A stretch of DNA of 64,000 bases from Pirellulaceae bacterium. GTDB taxonomy: Bacteria > Planctomycetota > Planctomycetia > Pirellulales > Pirellulaceae. Below are positions 6,445 through 15,389 of the stretch, one piece after another. The DNA lies in NCBI GenBank assembly GCA_022448315.1, contig JAKVCA010000001.1:135573-199572 (forward strand). The letters are read 5' to 3'. The notes below the pieces were generated by a model. It had not been told where the DNA came from. It saw only the letters and a list, made by a program, of their open reading frames with translations, and made no database searches. The translations under genes were made by a program, and so were the position numbers. How positions within the stretch are numbered: position 1 is the first letter of the stretch; the number at the start of each line of letters is the position of its first letter.

Positions 6445-9012
<2,568 letters not shown>

Positions 9013-9381
9013 CTAATCGACCGCGCCGAGTCTGAATTTCAGGTCTTGAATTGCTTTTCCCAACGACTCTTTTTGCAATCGAGCGAGAATATTGGACTTG
9101 TCGAAAGTCAACTCTGACAGAACCAGAGAATTCGCGACATAGACTTCCATGGTCCCCCTCAACAGGCGTCCACAGCGGCTATGTCTCGCGATATGATCTC
9201 CGACCACCTGGTTCCATAATGCTTGTATTTGATCTCGCTCTTCGACTTGAGCGTAGCCTTTCCGAGCAAGTAACCGATTGACTATTGATCGTGCCGTTTT
9301 CGAACGAGGAACACGAAACTTTTTCAGTTTCATATCATCGACCAGGTGATCGAAATCTTGTTCATCGTAGGAATCAAGCAT
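9013..9381 (-). CDS. dciA: DUF721/DciA-family protein, probable replicative helicase loader
   Basis: 122 residues with the DUF721 pattern: a basic N-terminal region followed by a compact domain starting near residue 48 (IQALWNQVVGDHIARHSR) and a strand/helix stretch with MEVYVANSLVLSEL. DciA proteins assist loading of the DnaB helicase in bacteria lacking DnaC. It lies between dnaN and gyrB, the place recF often occupies in other bacteria, which supports a replication role. Confidence 0.8.
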   Translation of the reverse strand: MLDSYDEQDFDHLVDDMKLKKFRVPRSKTARSIVNRLLARKGYAQVEERDQIQALWNQVVGDHIARHSRCGRLLRGTMEVYVANSLVLSELTFDKSNILARLQKESLGKAIQDLKFRLGAVD

Positions 9382-9407: not shown

Positions 9408-10526
9408 TCAACGACGATCGCGAGCCAGGGGCATAATGACATATCCATAGCTTTCCGAAGTTGTACAGAGAGCCGCACGATCTGCGTTCTCAATCTCCAT
9501 GGAGAAAGTTCCCATGGCATCGAGAACCCGAAGAAAATCAATGATGAATCGATAATCTAAAGTAATCTGCAGATTGGGACCGTCATAATTGACCGGCAGT
9601 TCGACACGTGATTCCCCAATATTGGCACAGGACAATCCCAAAACGAGCGTTCCATTCGTGAACTCAAAATCGATCCCGCGACTATCTGCATCGGCAACCA
9701 CAACGGCTTGCCGAATGGCGGAATGGAGGTCTCCGACGGGTAAATCGATCTGTGCGGCATCCGGTCGATTGGTTGGAAAAACATCACGCCACTTCGGAAA
9801 ACGACCCTCCACGAGGCGAGAATAAATGACGGTCCCACCATTTTTGACCAGAATGTCGTTGGCTCGAGCAGCGAGCATAACTTCAGAGTCATCATCGGGA
9901 AGTGATTTCTCAATGAGTTGCATCGACGCGGTCGGCACAATCGTCATGCTTTCAATATTGACCTCACCGACCTCTTCCGATGCTCCTTGCATCTTCGCAA
10001 GTCGCCGTCCGTCGGTTGCGACCGCGGTCATGCTTTGCTCCTCGAATTCAAGCAGGACACCTCCGAGGGCGAAACGACTGCTCTCATTGTCAGTTGCAAA
10101 CACGGTCCGATGAATAATCTGTTTAAGAACGCTGGATTTGACCTGAATGTAGGATTCTTCTTCGAAAGTTGCGACGGGTGGAAACTCATCGGGGTTACGA
10201 GCTTGGAGCGTCACCTGACTCTGATTTCCCTTCAGAACGATTTTCTCCGAACTGACGTCGATACTCAGAGTTTGATCACGAGATTCTCTTAGAAAAGGAG
10301 AAAGACGTGATACGGGTAATAACGCAACGCCTGGTTGGTGGACGGTAACATCGGGAACTTCGAGTCGCATCCCAATGTCCATATTGGTTGCAAGTAAAGT
10401 TGTTCCGGATTGGGTCACTTCAATCTTTACCGTTTCCAGAACGGGTTTGGGGCTCCGTGTGGGAGCAACGCTTCCGGCGATGGAAAAGACATTTAGAAAT
10501 GACTCGCGTTGAATTTCAATTTTCAC
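9408..10526 (-). CDS. dnaN: DNA polymerase III beta subunit (sliding clamp)
   Basis: 372 residues beginning at a GTG, with the three repeated beta-clamp domains expected for the family. Recognisable blocks include TDGRRLA near residue 173 and the C-terminal YVIMPLA motif that forms the partner-binding pocket. The clamp encircles DNA and tethers polymerase III and other factors. It is 26 bases upstream of dciA and 358 bases downstream of the dnaA-like gene. Confidence 0.98.
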   Translation of the reverse strand: MKIEIQRESFLNVFSIAGSVAPTRSPKPVLETVKIEVTQSGTTLLATNMDIGMRLEVPDVTVHQPGVALLPVSRLSPFLRESRDQTLSIDVSSEKIVLKGNQSQVTLQARNPDEFPPVATFEEESYIQVKSSVLKQIIHRTVFATDNESSRFALGGVLLEFEEQSMTAVATDGRRLAKMQGASEEVGEVNIESMTIVPTASMQLIEKSLPDDDSEVMLAARANDILVKNGGTVIYSRLVEGRFPKWRDVFPTNRPDAAQIDLPVGDLHSAIRQAVVVADADSRGIDFEFTNGTLVLGLSCANIGESRVELPVNYDGPNLQITLDYRFIIDFLRVLDAMGTFSMEIENADRAALCTTSESYGYVIMPLARDRR

Positions 10527-10884
10527 GAAATGATCCTTGCTTTCGAGGTCGCAAATCCGATTGCGATTGAGTGTTTAACTTTGGCCAGGGTCCTTGGCGT
10601 TTTGATTGTCAAGTTAAATGATCTATCTAGAAGATATTTAAGTAAGTATCAGTAATAGCAAGCATCTTACGCCCGGAGACTGGAACTGAAAGAGATAGCA
10701 CAGAAACCTCTATTTCTTGGTTGTTCTCACGATTCAAGGGTCTGGATAAGTTGTCATTAAACCGGTGGTATTCATGTTGGGGACCTGTTGCCGGATCGAC
10801 GGGTTTGTTGTTTTTCAGGAAAAGTTCAATTCCGGGTTCAGTTGCAGCAACAATATCCAACAATGGATTGACATATTTTCCAGA
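10527..10884. other. dnaA-dnaN intergenic region, candidate replication origin element
   Basis: 358 bases without a convincing gene between the dnaA-like gene and dnaN, a common place for a bacterial origin. An AT-rich stretch lies at about 10608-10655. The best DnaA-box match is at 10741-10749 (tctggataa, one mismatch to TGTGGATAA); TTTTCCAGA at about 10877 has two mismatches to TTATCCACA. One near-box is weak evidence. A 78-codon reading frame on the minus strand (10627-10863) begins with TTG and resembles nothing I recognise. Confidence 0.35.
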
Positions 10885-11949
10885 TTAGACCTCCTCGAAA
10901 TTAGGTTTGTTGGGAAGACTCGTTTTTAGGGAGCGACAAACGTCTTCCAAAAGGGTTTCAAGCTCAATGTCGTTGTGGCGAGATGATTCGATCTTTCGAT
11001 ACGCATGAATGATCGTCGAATGATCCCGATTTCCCAATAGATTTCCGATGGATTCAAAACTCGTTGAAGTGAGCTCTCGAATCAGATAGATGCAGACGCC
11101 TCTCATCCGGACTAAAGATTGGCGACGAGAATGGCCTTTCAGATCAGACCATTTGATTTTGCCAATTCGAGAAACGTGTTGCCCGATCAATTTTGGTTCG
11201 AGGACCTCAACTTCTTCGGTCAAATAAGCTTCAAGGTCGGCTGACCAATGACCGGTTGTCATGAGATCAGCCTCAATTTTTTCTATACACCTTTTCCATT
11301 GTGACCAGGTTGCTATGGGTCTCTGAAGAATCTGTGCGATCAATTTTGTATCCACATCCGGCAACCATACCGCGAGCCTTTCAGTCAAATAAGAGGCCTT
11401 CAGCCTTACCGGTGGTTGAGCAATTTTTAGTAGCAGTCCATCTGAAAGGCGACTTAGTAGCGGGTCTCCTTTTGATTCCTGGTCAATAAGAGAGGCTTCC
11501 ATGGTGACGATGATCAGTTGATCGGTGGTTCTCGCCCGATCGATCATTGCGATCAGCTCGGTATATGCCGTCTGGTTCACTTTCAATTGGGATGGATACT
11601 CGAAGATGATGATTTGATGATCGTCGAGTCGCTCGCGGAATTCGCCAAGAGATTTTGTTGTCACCGCATGATTAACGGACTGGCTGAATTCGCGGCCGCG
11701 AAAAGTGAAGGTTGATATTGAGTTTTGGCTTTTTAGAGACTTTGCAAGACTGATTGCCAAATTAATCCACCGACAAAGTCCAGTTTCCTGATCGCCGACC
11801 AGAACGATGGGTGAATACTGCGTGTCGATTCGCGAAATGGCCTGAAACGCAAGGTCAACCAACGAAGATTCGCCGAGCAGCCCGTTGGGTACTTCTGAAA
11901 TCAGAAAATCATGACTATTGGCAGACAAATCAATCACAGCAGTGTTCAT
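10885..11949 (-). CDS. DnaA-like replication initiator with degenerate ATPase site
   Basis: 354 residues against about 440-470 for typical DnaA: domains I and II are missing. The central part aligns with the AAA+ domain III, but the Walker A position (residues 52-59) reads GDQETGLC, so the Lys and Thr are Leu and Cys. Walker B reads IIIFEYP, with the first Asp replaced by Phe116 and Glu117 kept. The sensor 2 Arg is absent, while Arg167 in LLSRLSDGL aligns with the arginine finger. Domain IV is well kept: VRMRG, SFESIG and the RDHST box-binding motif at 308-312. It therefore looks able to bind DnaA boxes but not ATP. It heads the dnaN-dciA-gyrB block. It could be the locus's altered initiator or a paralogue. 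Confidence 0.82.
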   Translation of the reverse strand: MNTAVIDLSANSHDFLISEVPNGLLGESSLVDLAFQAISRIDTQYSPIVLVGDQETGLCRWINLAISLAKSLKSQNSISTFTFRGREFSQSVNHAVTTKSLGEFRERLDDHQIIIFEYPSQLKVNQTAYTELIAMIDRARTTDQLIIVTMEASLIDQESKGDPLLSRLSDGLLLKIAQPPVRLKASYLTERLAVWLPDVDTKLIAQILQRPIATWSQWKRCIEKIEADLMTTGHWSADLEAYLTEEVEVLEPKLIGQHVSRIGKIKWSDLKGHSRRQSLVRMRGVCIYLIRELTSTSFESIGNLLGNRDHSTIIHAYRKIESSRHNDIELETLLEDVCRSLKTSLPNKPNFEEV

Positions 11950-12092: not shown

Positions 12093-13322
12093 TCAATCGT
12101 GACTTCGCGATTGTAACTTACTGTGAGCCAATGAGATACGACGAGCAGACTCTGTAGCGTCGTCCAAGCTATTGAAAAGTCCAAAGCTGAAGCGGAGTGC
12201 GCTATCAATTACCGCTGGAGAGAGGCCCATATTTTGGAGAACCGGTGATGGATCACTCGAGCCACTTGCACAGGCGGAGCCCGTCGAACAAGCGACACCC
12301 GCCATATCTGCAGCCAAGACCATTTCCTGTCGGTCGACACCAGGAAACGCTATGCAACTTGTGTTTGGAAGACGCGAAACATCTTTTCCGATAACCAACG
12401 CGGCGGGAATGGCTTTGGTCACCAAGGACTCAAACTCATTTCTCATTGACCGGAGTTTTGATTCGTGTCGATTTCGATCTGTGAAGTACCAATGCATGGC
12501 TGCTGCTGCTCCCGCCGCCAAAGCAATATTTTCGGTTCCAGGACGTAATCCTTCCTGCTGGAATCCTCCCATAAGCCTTGGCTGTAGCGACGCATCAGAT
12601 TTAAGAAGTAAACCAGCAATTCCTACCGGCCCATGAAATTTATGGGGTGCGAACGTTAATGCATCCACTCCCAAAGCTTCGAAGGAGACCTCAATTTTCC
12701 CAATTGCTTGAACAGCGTCAGTATGACAAAACACGTTTCGATCGCGACAAAGCTTCGATACCGATTGAAGAGGCTGAATAACACCGGTTTCGTTATTCGC
12801 AAGCATGACAGACACCGCAAGTGTCGCTTCGTCAACGAGTTGATTCAGGTCGTCAAGCGATACGACGCCGTTGGAATCAGCTTGTGCGATGCGCAGTTCT
12901 ACCCCCAGGCGTTGCAGTTGTTGCGCAGCGAGAGTTACACTCGGATGCTCAATTCCTGAAATGACGAGATTACCAGGTCGGATTCTTCCTCTCTCATCCA
13001 AACACCGACCGAACAGGATGAGGTTATTCGCTTCGGTACCGCAACCCGTCCAAATGAGTTTGTCTGCAGGAAACTTAGTTGCGGAGGCATCTAAGAGATT
13101 GAGAACGAGTTCTCGGACACGGTTTAGGATTCTTGAACTTACCTGGCCTGTTTGGTGCTGACTGGCAGGATTCGCAAGTCTGCTATTCCAACACGCTTCG
13201 ATGGTTTCGATTGCAACATCAGCAATCGGAGTGGTCGAGTTGTTATCCAAATAAATTTGTTCTGACTGTTGGAGACCCGTCATCACGGGAGTCCACGGCA
13301 GGTGGGAATGGTCTGAAGTCAT
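12093..13322 (-). CDS. Cysteine desulfurase (NifS/IscS family)
   Basis: 409 residues from the ATG at 13322; an ATG at 13283 is an equally possible start just before the conserved YLDNNSTTP. PLP-dependent class V aminotransferase fold: HTDAVQAIGK precedes the PLP-binding lysine in APHKFHGP (near residue 227), and the catalytic cysteine lies in CSTGSACASG (near residue 347). The enzyme removes sulfur from cysteine to give a persulfide for Fe-S clusters or thio-tRNAs. No scaffold gene (iscU, sufU, mnmA) is adjacent, so the recipient is unknown. Confidence 0.93.
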   Translation of the reverse strand: MTSDHSHLPWTPVMTGLQQSEQIYLDNNSTTPIADVAIETIEACWNSRLANPASQHQTGQVSSRILNRVRELVLNLLDASATKFPADKLIWTGCGTEANNLILFGRCLDERGRIRPGNLVISGIEHPSVTLAAQQLQRLGVELRIAQADSNGVVSLDDLNQLVDEATLAVSVMLANNETGVIQPLQSVSKLCRDRNVFCHTDAVQAIGKIEVSFEALGVDALTFAPHKFHGPVGIAGLLLKSDASLQPRLMGGFQQEGLRPGTENIALAAGAAAAMHWYFTDRNRHESKLRSMRNEFESLVTKAIPAALVIGKDVSRLPNTSCIAFPGVDRQEMVLAADMAGVACSTGSACASGSSDPSPVLQNMGLSPAVIDSALRFSFGLFNSLDDATESARRISLAHSKLQSRSHD

Positions 13323-14026: not shown

Positions 14027-14351
14027 GGCTATGGTCTCTGAGAAACGCAAATCGATTTAATAACCGCACGATTCATTTTGGCCAAAGCGTTCCGTTCGGT
14101 CCAGCAATCGTCGCTACGAAAGGGATAGAGTGCGTCGCTTCTTTCAGAAATATTCGCAGACACAGGGTCATTTTGGCGTTTGCTGAGATACCATCTTTGT
14201 CAGAAATTTGACAAACTGGATCGACATGCAACCGCTCACCCAAACCATTTGAAAAACTTCTGTTATGAGACATTTCCATCACCGTCTTCCGACCGCCGCC
14301 ACGCATCGTCGATCACACGCTTCATTATCATCGAAGTTAAGCGGATCACAT
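14027..14351. other. Divergent intergenic region
   Basis: 325 bases between a minus-strand membrane-protein gene and plus-strand scpB, which must contain both promoters. I see no consensus -35/-10 pair and no RNA gene. Confidence 0.5.
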
Positions 14352-15389
14352 ATGACGAATGTTACAACGGGCTGGAACTGGTTTTGGGTGTTTAGGGGTT
14401 ATGGGGGGTGTGAAAACCTCGACAATCGTGGTCGTAGAGTTCGTCGAAAGCGGCTCGAAGCAATCTTGTTCATCGCGCGAGAGCCTTTAAACGCCCGTAA
14501 GTTAGCTCAACTGGCGGATCTTAAGAATGGGACTGAAGCCCGAGCCCTAATCCGGCGATTGAATCAACATTACCGACGTAATGTTCGATCATTTCGAGTG
14601 GAGCGAATTGCTGGGGGTTATCAACTCCTGACCAAACCGGAATTTGCGGGGTGGTTACGAAGATTGAACAACCAAAATCAAAGTCTTGGGCTTTCAAGTC
14701 CCGCTCTAGAGACCCTGGCAGTCGTTGCCTACCAGCAGCCGATTCTGAGAGCGGAAGTCGAATCTGTTCGAGGAGTCAGTTGTGGGGAATTGTTGAGGCA
14801 ACTCATGGATCGTAACTTGGTACGGATCTCAGGTCGAAGTGAAGAACTGGGACGCCCTTTTTTGTACTCGACAACTCGACAATTTTTGTCGATGTTTGGT
14901 CTTAACTCACTGGATGATTTGCCACAATCTGAAGCGTTGGTTGACGCGGCTTCGGATGATCACGTTGACCCGATCGTTGTCGAATCGGAACCACGAACGG
15001 TTGCTAACCCTTCTCAGGAGAATGAAGAAGTGACTTTGACGGAATGGCACCAAGATGGCGTTGAGGAAACCGACGATACTGAAGATGGATCACAGTCGGT
15101 CGTCATGGAGATTGAGGATGAAGAAAACTATGCCTACGCCGACGACGATGACGACGAGGAAGAAGACGGTCTGCCAGCCGATGGATTCGACGGCTTAGAT
15201 AACAACTTTGACGACGCCGACGACGATGATGACGATGACTACGATGACGATGACTCAGAAGAGAATGAGTGGCAAGAGGTCGAGGGAGACGACGACGAAG
15301 AAGATGATGAGTACGACGACGAATGGAGCGATGACGACGACGTCGAGTGGACTGACGACGACGATGATGATGATGACGATTGGGACTAG
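14352..15389 (+). CDS. scpB: Segregation and condensation protein B with long acidic tail
   Basis: 345 residues from the ATG at 14352. ScpB winged-helix core at about residues 30-190: LEAILFIAREPL, then SPALETLAVVAYQQPI and RAEVESVRG, then GRPFLYSTT. ScpB dimers bind ScpA in the SMC complex that organises and separates chromosomes. Typical ScpB is about 170-200 residues. Here about 150 more follow, the last 85 almost only Asp and Glu with a few Trp and Tyr. The tail DNA (about 15100-15389) is a GAC/GAT/GAA-rich low-complexity run. scpA is 6 kb away on the other strand. Confidence 0.9.
   Translation: MTNVTTGWNWFWVFRGYGGCENLDNRGRRVRRKRLEAILFIAREPLNARKLAQLADLKNGTEARALIRRLNQHYRRNVRSFRVERIAGGYQLLTKPEFAGWLRRLNNQNQSLGLSSPALETLAVVAYQQPILRAEVESVRGVSCGELLRQLMDRNLVRISGRSEELGRPFLYSTTRQFLSMFGLNSLDDLPQSEALVDAASDDHVDPIVVESEPRTVANPSQENEEVTLTEWHQDGVEETDDTEDGSQSVVMEIEDEENYAYADDDDDEEEDGLPADGFDGLDNNFDDADDDDDDDYDDDDSEENEWQEVEGDDDEEDDEYDDEWSDDDDVEWTDDDDDDDDDWD

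Follow-up and report, generated by a model that had tools for sequence, protein, structure and literature searches.

A DnaA paralogue lacking the Walker A lysine beside dnaN in a Pirellulaceae genome, and a possible division of the replication initiator between two proteins

The dnaN locus and its reduced DnaA

The window, that is the whole stretch of 64,000 nucleotides of Pirellulaceae DNA that was analysed, carries a minus-strand open frame of 354 amino acids which is followed by dnaN, dciA and gyrB (Table 1). An earlier note on this DNA, made from the letters alone, had named these three neighbours and Pfam bears them out. The frame encodes a DnaA paralogue, hereafter S, a name that is also used for its dnaN-linked counterparts in other genomes. 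An ScpB gene (14265-15389), the product of which has a long acidic, Asp/Glu-rich C-terminal tail, is encoded on the other strand from S and dnaN.

Table 1. Positions in the window of S, its neighbours and the elements of the S-dnaN gap
Feature	Positions	Strand	Remarks
S, dnaN-linked DnaA paralogue	10885..11949	-	Walker A Lys lost; domain III degenerate; RDHST motif in domain IV
dnaN (beta clamp)	9408..10526	-	Pfam
dciA	9013..9381	-	Pfam
gyrB	6445..8946	-	Pfam
class-V aminotransferase (NifS-like)	12093..13322	-	Pfam; 36 of the 58 S loci, window counted, have it upstream of S
DnaA-like box 1 TTTTCCAGA	10876..10884	+	extended GACANNTTWTCCA at 10870-10882
DnaA-like box 2 TTATCCAGA	10741..10749	-	inverted to box 1, 135 bp away; extended motif 10743-10755
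degenerate DnaA-trio run CTA TTA CTG ATA CTT	10644..10658	-	trio rule from PMC8287927
AT-rich tract past the trios, candidate unwinding element	10612..10643	-	

The Pfam family Bac_DnaA_C matches S with an E-value of 9.6e-21, more than chance would give, and domain IV with its RDHST motif is present as had been described. The DnaA ATPase domain (PF00308) is found at E 0.013 with 16.2 bits, below the cut-off of 23. Among the 55 S sequences scanned, of which 54 match this domain, the window's is the sole one without a match at E 0.01; this family scan and the alignment for the structural model drew on 55 S sequences, part of them cut to 400 aa. Against the TIGR00362 equivalog model S scores 112.1 bits where the cut-off is 343.9. 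Hda, an AAA+ protein without domain IV, does not describe S either, since domain IV is there.

Aligned with its relatives, S reads GDQETGLC at the position of the Walker A motif GxxxxGK[ST], so the loss that the earlier note had reported stands. Walker B reads IIIFEY against LLVIDD: the first acid is present as Glu and the second Asp has become Tyr, hence the pair of acids is incomplete. The motif is indeed degenerate but, contrary to what had been stated, its first acidic residue is not lost; that statement was off by one because the Phe of IIIFEY sits before the first acid. The sensor-2 Arg, correctly given as missing, is replaced by Ser, which is not peculiar to this gene (see below). The Arg finger is kept as R167 in LLSRLSDG. 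A search of S for DnaA_N (domain I) gave no match at E 1, and only 26 residues precede the N-linker box of domain III, so that the absence of domains I and II also holds; loss of domain I is common among S copies. Many S N-termini show a short similar stretch like NGVFSIPL in place of domains I/II, hardly visible in the window, which is a possible interaction peptide.

Residue numbers of E. coli DnaA were transferred via the alignment with 1j1v, the chain numbering offset of which we take to give the E. coli positions. In the accessible part of PMC7561715 the DnaA box contacts are named as R399, P423, D433, H434, T435 and H439. The window's S keeps R399, D433, H434 and H439, has Ser for T435 and Glu for P423.

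An AlphaFold2 model of S is confident and DnaA-like (mean pLDDT 87.9, pTM 0.73). Its best PDB matches are DnaA structures, with the origin-opening complex 8btg on top (E 2e-14); the whole-chain TM of about 0.5 to this structure indicates that the domains of the model are placed differently relative to each other. Domain IV of the model superposes on the DnaA-DNA structure 1j1v with a TMt of 0.95 and an rmsd of 1.1 A, and the model also matches structures of DnaA domain III (8bv3, TMt 0.68).

A second DnaA in the same genome

The genome has only one other DnaA_C gene, a 478-aa frame on contig C35, hereafter B. It shows GPTGCGKSH, VDD, an Arg finger, the sensor-2 Arg and a DnaA_N domain, and scores 321.8 bits against TIGR00362, which is also under the cut-off of 343.9. 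S as the sole DnaA of this genome is ruled out by B, the second DnaA with intact Walker A for which the earlier note had proposed a search.

That note had left two readings: either initiation no longer depends on ATP-bound DnaA, or S is a DNA-binding regulator, as an intact paralogue acting as the essential initiator would make it, with the real DnaA elsewhere. By its motifs B is an intact paralogue for which essential initiator is a candidate role, and with such a gene encoded ATP-free initiation need not be assumed. An ATPase encoded elsewhere fits the regulator reading. 'Regulator' may however be too weak a label, because S adjoins a conserved box pair and DnaA-trio run and keeps most of the box-reading residues.

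Genes for the helicase DnaB were seen directly downstream of B in five of 60 B loci (L135, L137, L151, L158 and L159), forming an initiator-helicase gene pair, and at 3.5 kb from B in a sixth (L162).

Distribution and ancestry

The sample comprised 60 genomes out to the level of the order, own genome included. In 59 of these DnaA_C matched two or more times at E 0.001; the second match of G038 falls below the cut-off. B is present in 60/60 genomes and G043, with a single match, has B alone and no S. Leaving out G043 (no S) and G038 (broken frame) gives a set of 58 S, to which G441 was added for the residue counts (59 S). G009, G024 and G029 have further DnaA_C matches besides the S/B pair, with E-values from 4.6e-9 to 6.4e-4, two of which exceed the cut-off; these may be other domain IV proteins. 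In a survey of 199 genomes of the phylum 191 had at least one DnaA_C match and about 140, counted by hand, at least two; the family f62 contains four genomes with four to six matches each (G108, G129, G180 and G211), its other members having two or three.

The gene immediately downstream of S is dnaN in 54 of 58 loci, and the flanks of the 60 B genes (up to ~6 kb) contain neither dnaN nor gyrB. In other classes dnaN is near four of seven canonical full-length DnaA loci, and one of five loci taken as second copies (L308) is also beside dnaN; the outgroups included some generic DnaAs. Grouping canonical DnaA with S gives a tree that the AU test does not reject (p-AU 0.643) and that has a likelihood slightly above that of the free tree. 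B groups with four of the five second copies, a weak join with an SH-aLRT of 88. On this basis S most plausibly represents the ancestral dnaA, and B an old paralogue, provisionally so because of long branches.

The Walker A position cannot be read in one B, nor in L072 and L093, where the contig ends. Among the 57 readable S it is Lys in 53, Leu in three (window, G017 and G441) and Arg in one (G021). The latter copy (L084) reads GPPGNGRS and has the longest S branch of the tree. G017 (GPNAAGLS) and G441 (GSSSCGLT) belong to another genus. All three Leu copies fall in a single clade (SH-aLRT 100), and when the window's protein was compared with 241 genomes of the family only these two others reached E 1e-36. 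A sequencing error behind the loss is rejected and an assembly error is unlikely, since Lys to Leu is common to three assemblies of two genera. The loss as a trait of the whole order is likewise rejected by the 53 copies with Lys. Dating by alignment of homologues, which the earlier note had suggested, confines the change to three genomes in two genera; it is young, atop an older reduction common across the order.

Complementary conservation of S and B

S and B are worn at different sites. D433 is found in 59/59 S versus 0/60 B (Ser in 47 B; one B has a gap), H439 in 55/59 S versus 0/60 B, and R399 in 58/59 S versus 26/60 B, of which another 27 have Lys. H434 occurs in all S and all 60 B, and R407 in 60/60 B. 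The ATPase residues show the opposite: the sensor-2 Arg is kept in 12/59 S (window counted) versus 60/60 B and the Walker Lys in 53/57 readable S versus 59/59 readable B; the Arg finger is present in 56/59 S. DnaA_N matches 45/60 B and is outside the 25 commonest families of the 55 S scanned.

Mean identities over 1653 genome pairs are 27% for domain III and 44% for domain IV of S, and 44% and 56% for the corresponding domains of B. The window's S has the second lowest mean identity of 58 in domain III as well as in domain IV, hence it has diverged beyond the ATPase part too. Between the S of G017 and G441 dN and dS are 0.65 and 1.31 in domain III and 0.48 and 1.41 in domain IV, values near saturation by which some constraint seems to remain in both domains.

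The other family of the class that was sampled, f21, differs: Asn433 stands in both copies, the sensor-2 Arg is retained by the four S-like copies, and the two B-like loci have no box of the type described below upstream. From this pattern the split between S and B is not class-wide.

The S-dnaN gap and the box upstream of B

Boxes of the form TTWTNCACA are concentrated in the 1.5 kb downstream of S, at 2.9 per 10 kb versus 0.4-0.9 elsewhere in the same loci. In the window the gap between S and dnaN measures 358 bp. DnaA-trios and their role in origin opening are described in the accessible text of PMC8287927, from which the trio rule was taken. For the gap a set of 55 loci was used, without L073, L076, L093 and L115, where no dnaN was found, and with G441. 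In 41/55 loci the top trio-like site of the gap matches at 10/14 positions or more, versus 8/55 in one shuffle each. Relative to this site a minus-strand box lies near -230 and a plus-strand box near -95, with an AT-rich tract past the trios; a third box, TTATC(G/A)AC, lies near -24 in 9/41 loci. The box test used only the 41 loci with at least 10/14 trio matches and is partly post hoc, because the search ranges for the boxes were chosen after seeing the trio-anchored layout. Both boxes with at most one mismatch are present in 27/41 of these trio-bearing loci, window counted, versus a mean of 0.035 and a maximum of 1 in 200 shuffles, and in 24 of the 27 the spacing of the pair is 132-136 bp.

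The window keeps this geometry, with boxes at -223 and -88, and has no third box near -24. At position 8 G replaces C in each of its two boxes; the box upstream of the genome's own B keeps C. The extended motif GACANNTTWTCCA occurs twice in the window, as the two boxes, versus 0.09 expected and 0/100 shuffles reaching two. Own genome has ten copies (two for the reversed control), of which two are the box pair and one is upstream of B. At extended-box sites in other genomes, seven loci of which were viewed by eye, no common neighbour was noticed, except for dnaB near one.

For 50/60 B genes a TTWTCCAC box falls between -800 and +300 relative to the frame start, and 50/52 of such sites are on the coding strand. 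The 400 bp upstream of B hold 45 sites, or 19.4 per 10 kb versus 0.2-2.2 in the other upstream bins. In the window's genome ACAGGTTWTCCAC occurs a single time, at some 300 bp ahead of B. Because the core TTWTCCAC was required, the logo of these boxes carries information in its flanking bases only. In their flanks the two boxes of the origin pair and the box upstream of B are alike: 94-100% of sites have A at -5 and C at -4, and A at -3 is found in 57-96% of sites at the same three places.

Checks of origin position were made by skew and by parS. GC skew, sampled in 14 and 6 stretches of 20 kb in two single-contig relatives, showed no large-scale flip at S. In G041 it turns positive between 2.9 and 3.5 Mb, with S at 4.2 Mb; in 2-kb windows it goes from -0.12 to +0.14 across the S locus. 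In 12 genomes parS sites were next to neither S nor B, a search of no use since the reversed control gave about as many sites. From boxes, trios and their spacing we infer that the S-dnaN gap is the likely origin in use.

Interpretation

In the usual model of bacterial initiation a single DnaA provides recognition, ATP switching, opening and helicase recruitment. The explanation we favour, with confidence and doubt about equal, is that S acts as a nucleotide-independent box reader and origin anchor and that opening depends on ATP bound by B. S would be the original origin-linked DnaA, in the window's clade reduced to a nucleotide-independent reader of DnaA boxes. By means of domain IV it would hold the inverted box pair in the S-dnaN gap and serve as anchor or end protomer at the origin. 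Because R167 is kept, its Arg finger could engage the ATP bound by an adjacent protomer, B, despite its own empty pocket. B would contribute ATP binding and filament growth on the DnaA-trios, and recruit the helicase through domain I; S probably acts at the conserved box upstream of B as well. That S and B cooperate and make contact, that S and not B reads the boxes, and that events at the origin take this order are inferences, and B, which keeps H434 and R407, may still bind such boxes.

For an anchor the loss of the Walker Lys in the window's clade would cost little. Unwinding in E. coli proceeds fully when box R1 carries ADP-DnaA, since the nucleotide of the R1 protomer is at the outer edge of the complex, according to the part of PMC5742627 that was available. 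With the Lys kept in most readable copies, S is not ATP-blind in general. Several observations count against this explanation: P423 is not kept in the window's S and its domain IV is the second most diverged of 58; the window's boxes are changed (G at position 8, no -24 box); and the GC skew, the parS result and the pattern in f21 do not favour it.

A rather unlikely alternative, though the strongest of those considered, places S outside the opening complex as a DNA-binding regulator, which would occupy the boxes of the gap and the one upstream of B and thereby limit access of B or tune its synthesis. The TTWTCCAC box at 50 of the 60 B genes, with its 45 sites within 400 bp upstream, would suit such a protein, as would an S without domain I and, in the window's clade, without an ATP site. 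The near-fixed spacing of the boxes and their set distance to the trio run in many loci are however those of opening machinery, and S stays by dnaN in 54 of 58 loci. The two roles, regulator and anchor, can coexist.

That S is a decaying relic in the window's clade, on its way to being lost while B does everything, we regard as improbable. The low identity of the window's S in both domains, its damaged Walker A and B and the existence of a genome with B only (G043) agree with decay, but the open frame is kept in three genomes, R399, D433, H434 and H439 are retained, the model is confidently DnaA-like (mean pLDDT 87.9), and dN is smaller than dS between G017 and G441 in both domains, if near saturation. 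It is most improbable that S alone initiates without ATP in the window's clade and B has another job. The origin-like module does adjoin S and not B, yet B occurs in 60/60 genomes with its ATPase motifs and mostly with DnaA_N, S has no domain I, and no DnaA is known to us that opens its origin unless ATP is present.

Returning to S as box reader and B as ATP-dependent opener, a wider proposal that we put forward more tentatively is that the initiator is split across the order into an origin reader, S, and an ATPase and helicase loader, B, the wear of each falling where the other is conserved. One clade would have completed the split with a reader that does not bind ATP, and the reader may also set the level of B via the box upstream of it.

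The pair matters for annotation. In at least seven sampled single-contig relatives (G006, G011, G019, G028, G035, G042 and G059) the record starts at the reduced S copy, and in one paper, as far as its available text goes, Pirellulaceae chromosomes were rotated to dnaA (PMC13241502). If recognition and use of ATP sit on two proteins, the ATP requirement of the anchor sites and that of the opening filament could be tested apart.

Comparison with known initiators

The ORC/Cdc6 initiators of eukaryotes and archaea include inactive ATPase subunits. A division of work between two DnaA proteins would resemble them in that the initiator is divided among active and inactive AAA+ subunits; they differ in not being bacterial and in having other DNA-binding domains. 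With canonical DnaA (TIGR00362; dnaA-dnaN locus) S shares the fold of domain IV, most box-contact residues, the place by dnaN, and boxes and DnaA-trios in the gap to dnaN. Unlike canonical DnaA, the window's S is without the Walker Lys, the second acid of Walker B, the sensor-2 Arg and domain I.

No description of a planctomycete DnaA pair was found in the open-licence literature, in so far as its text was accessible, and 'dnaA' is absent from the available main text of the essential-gene paper on Planctopirus (PMC10632474). Paired dnaA genes, likewise two in one chromosome, are described for Chlamydiales in a paper on Waddlia (PMC2878342); a difference is that neither of the Chlamydiales copies is linked to the GC-skew minimum. 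In the E. coli system, as given in the available text of PMC5742627, one protein in another nucleotide state takes the place that a dedicated ATP-blind paralogue would have here; the likeness is that ADP-DnaA at box R1 is an anchor protomer, the nucleotide state of which is immaterial to unwinding.
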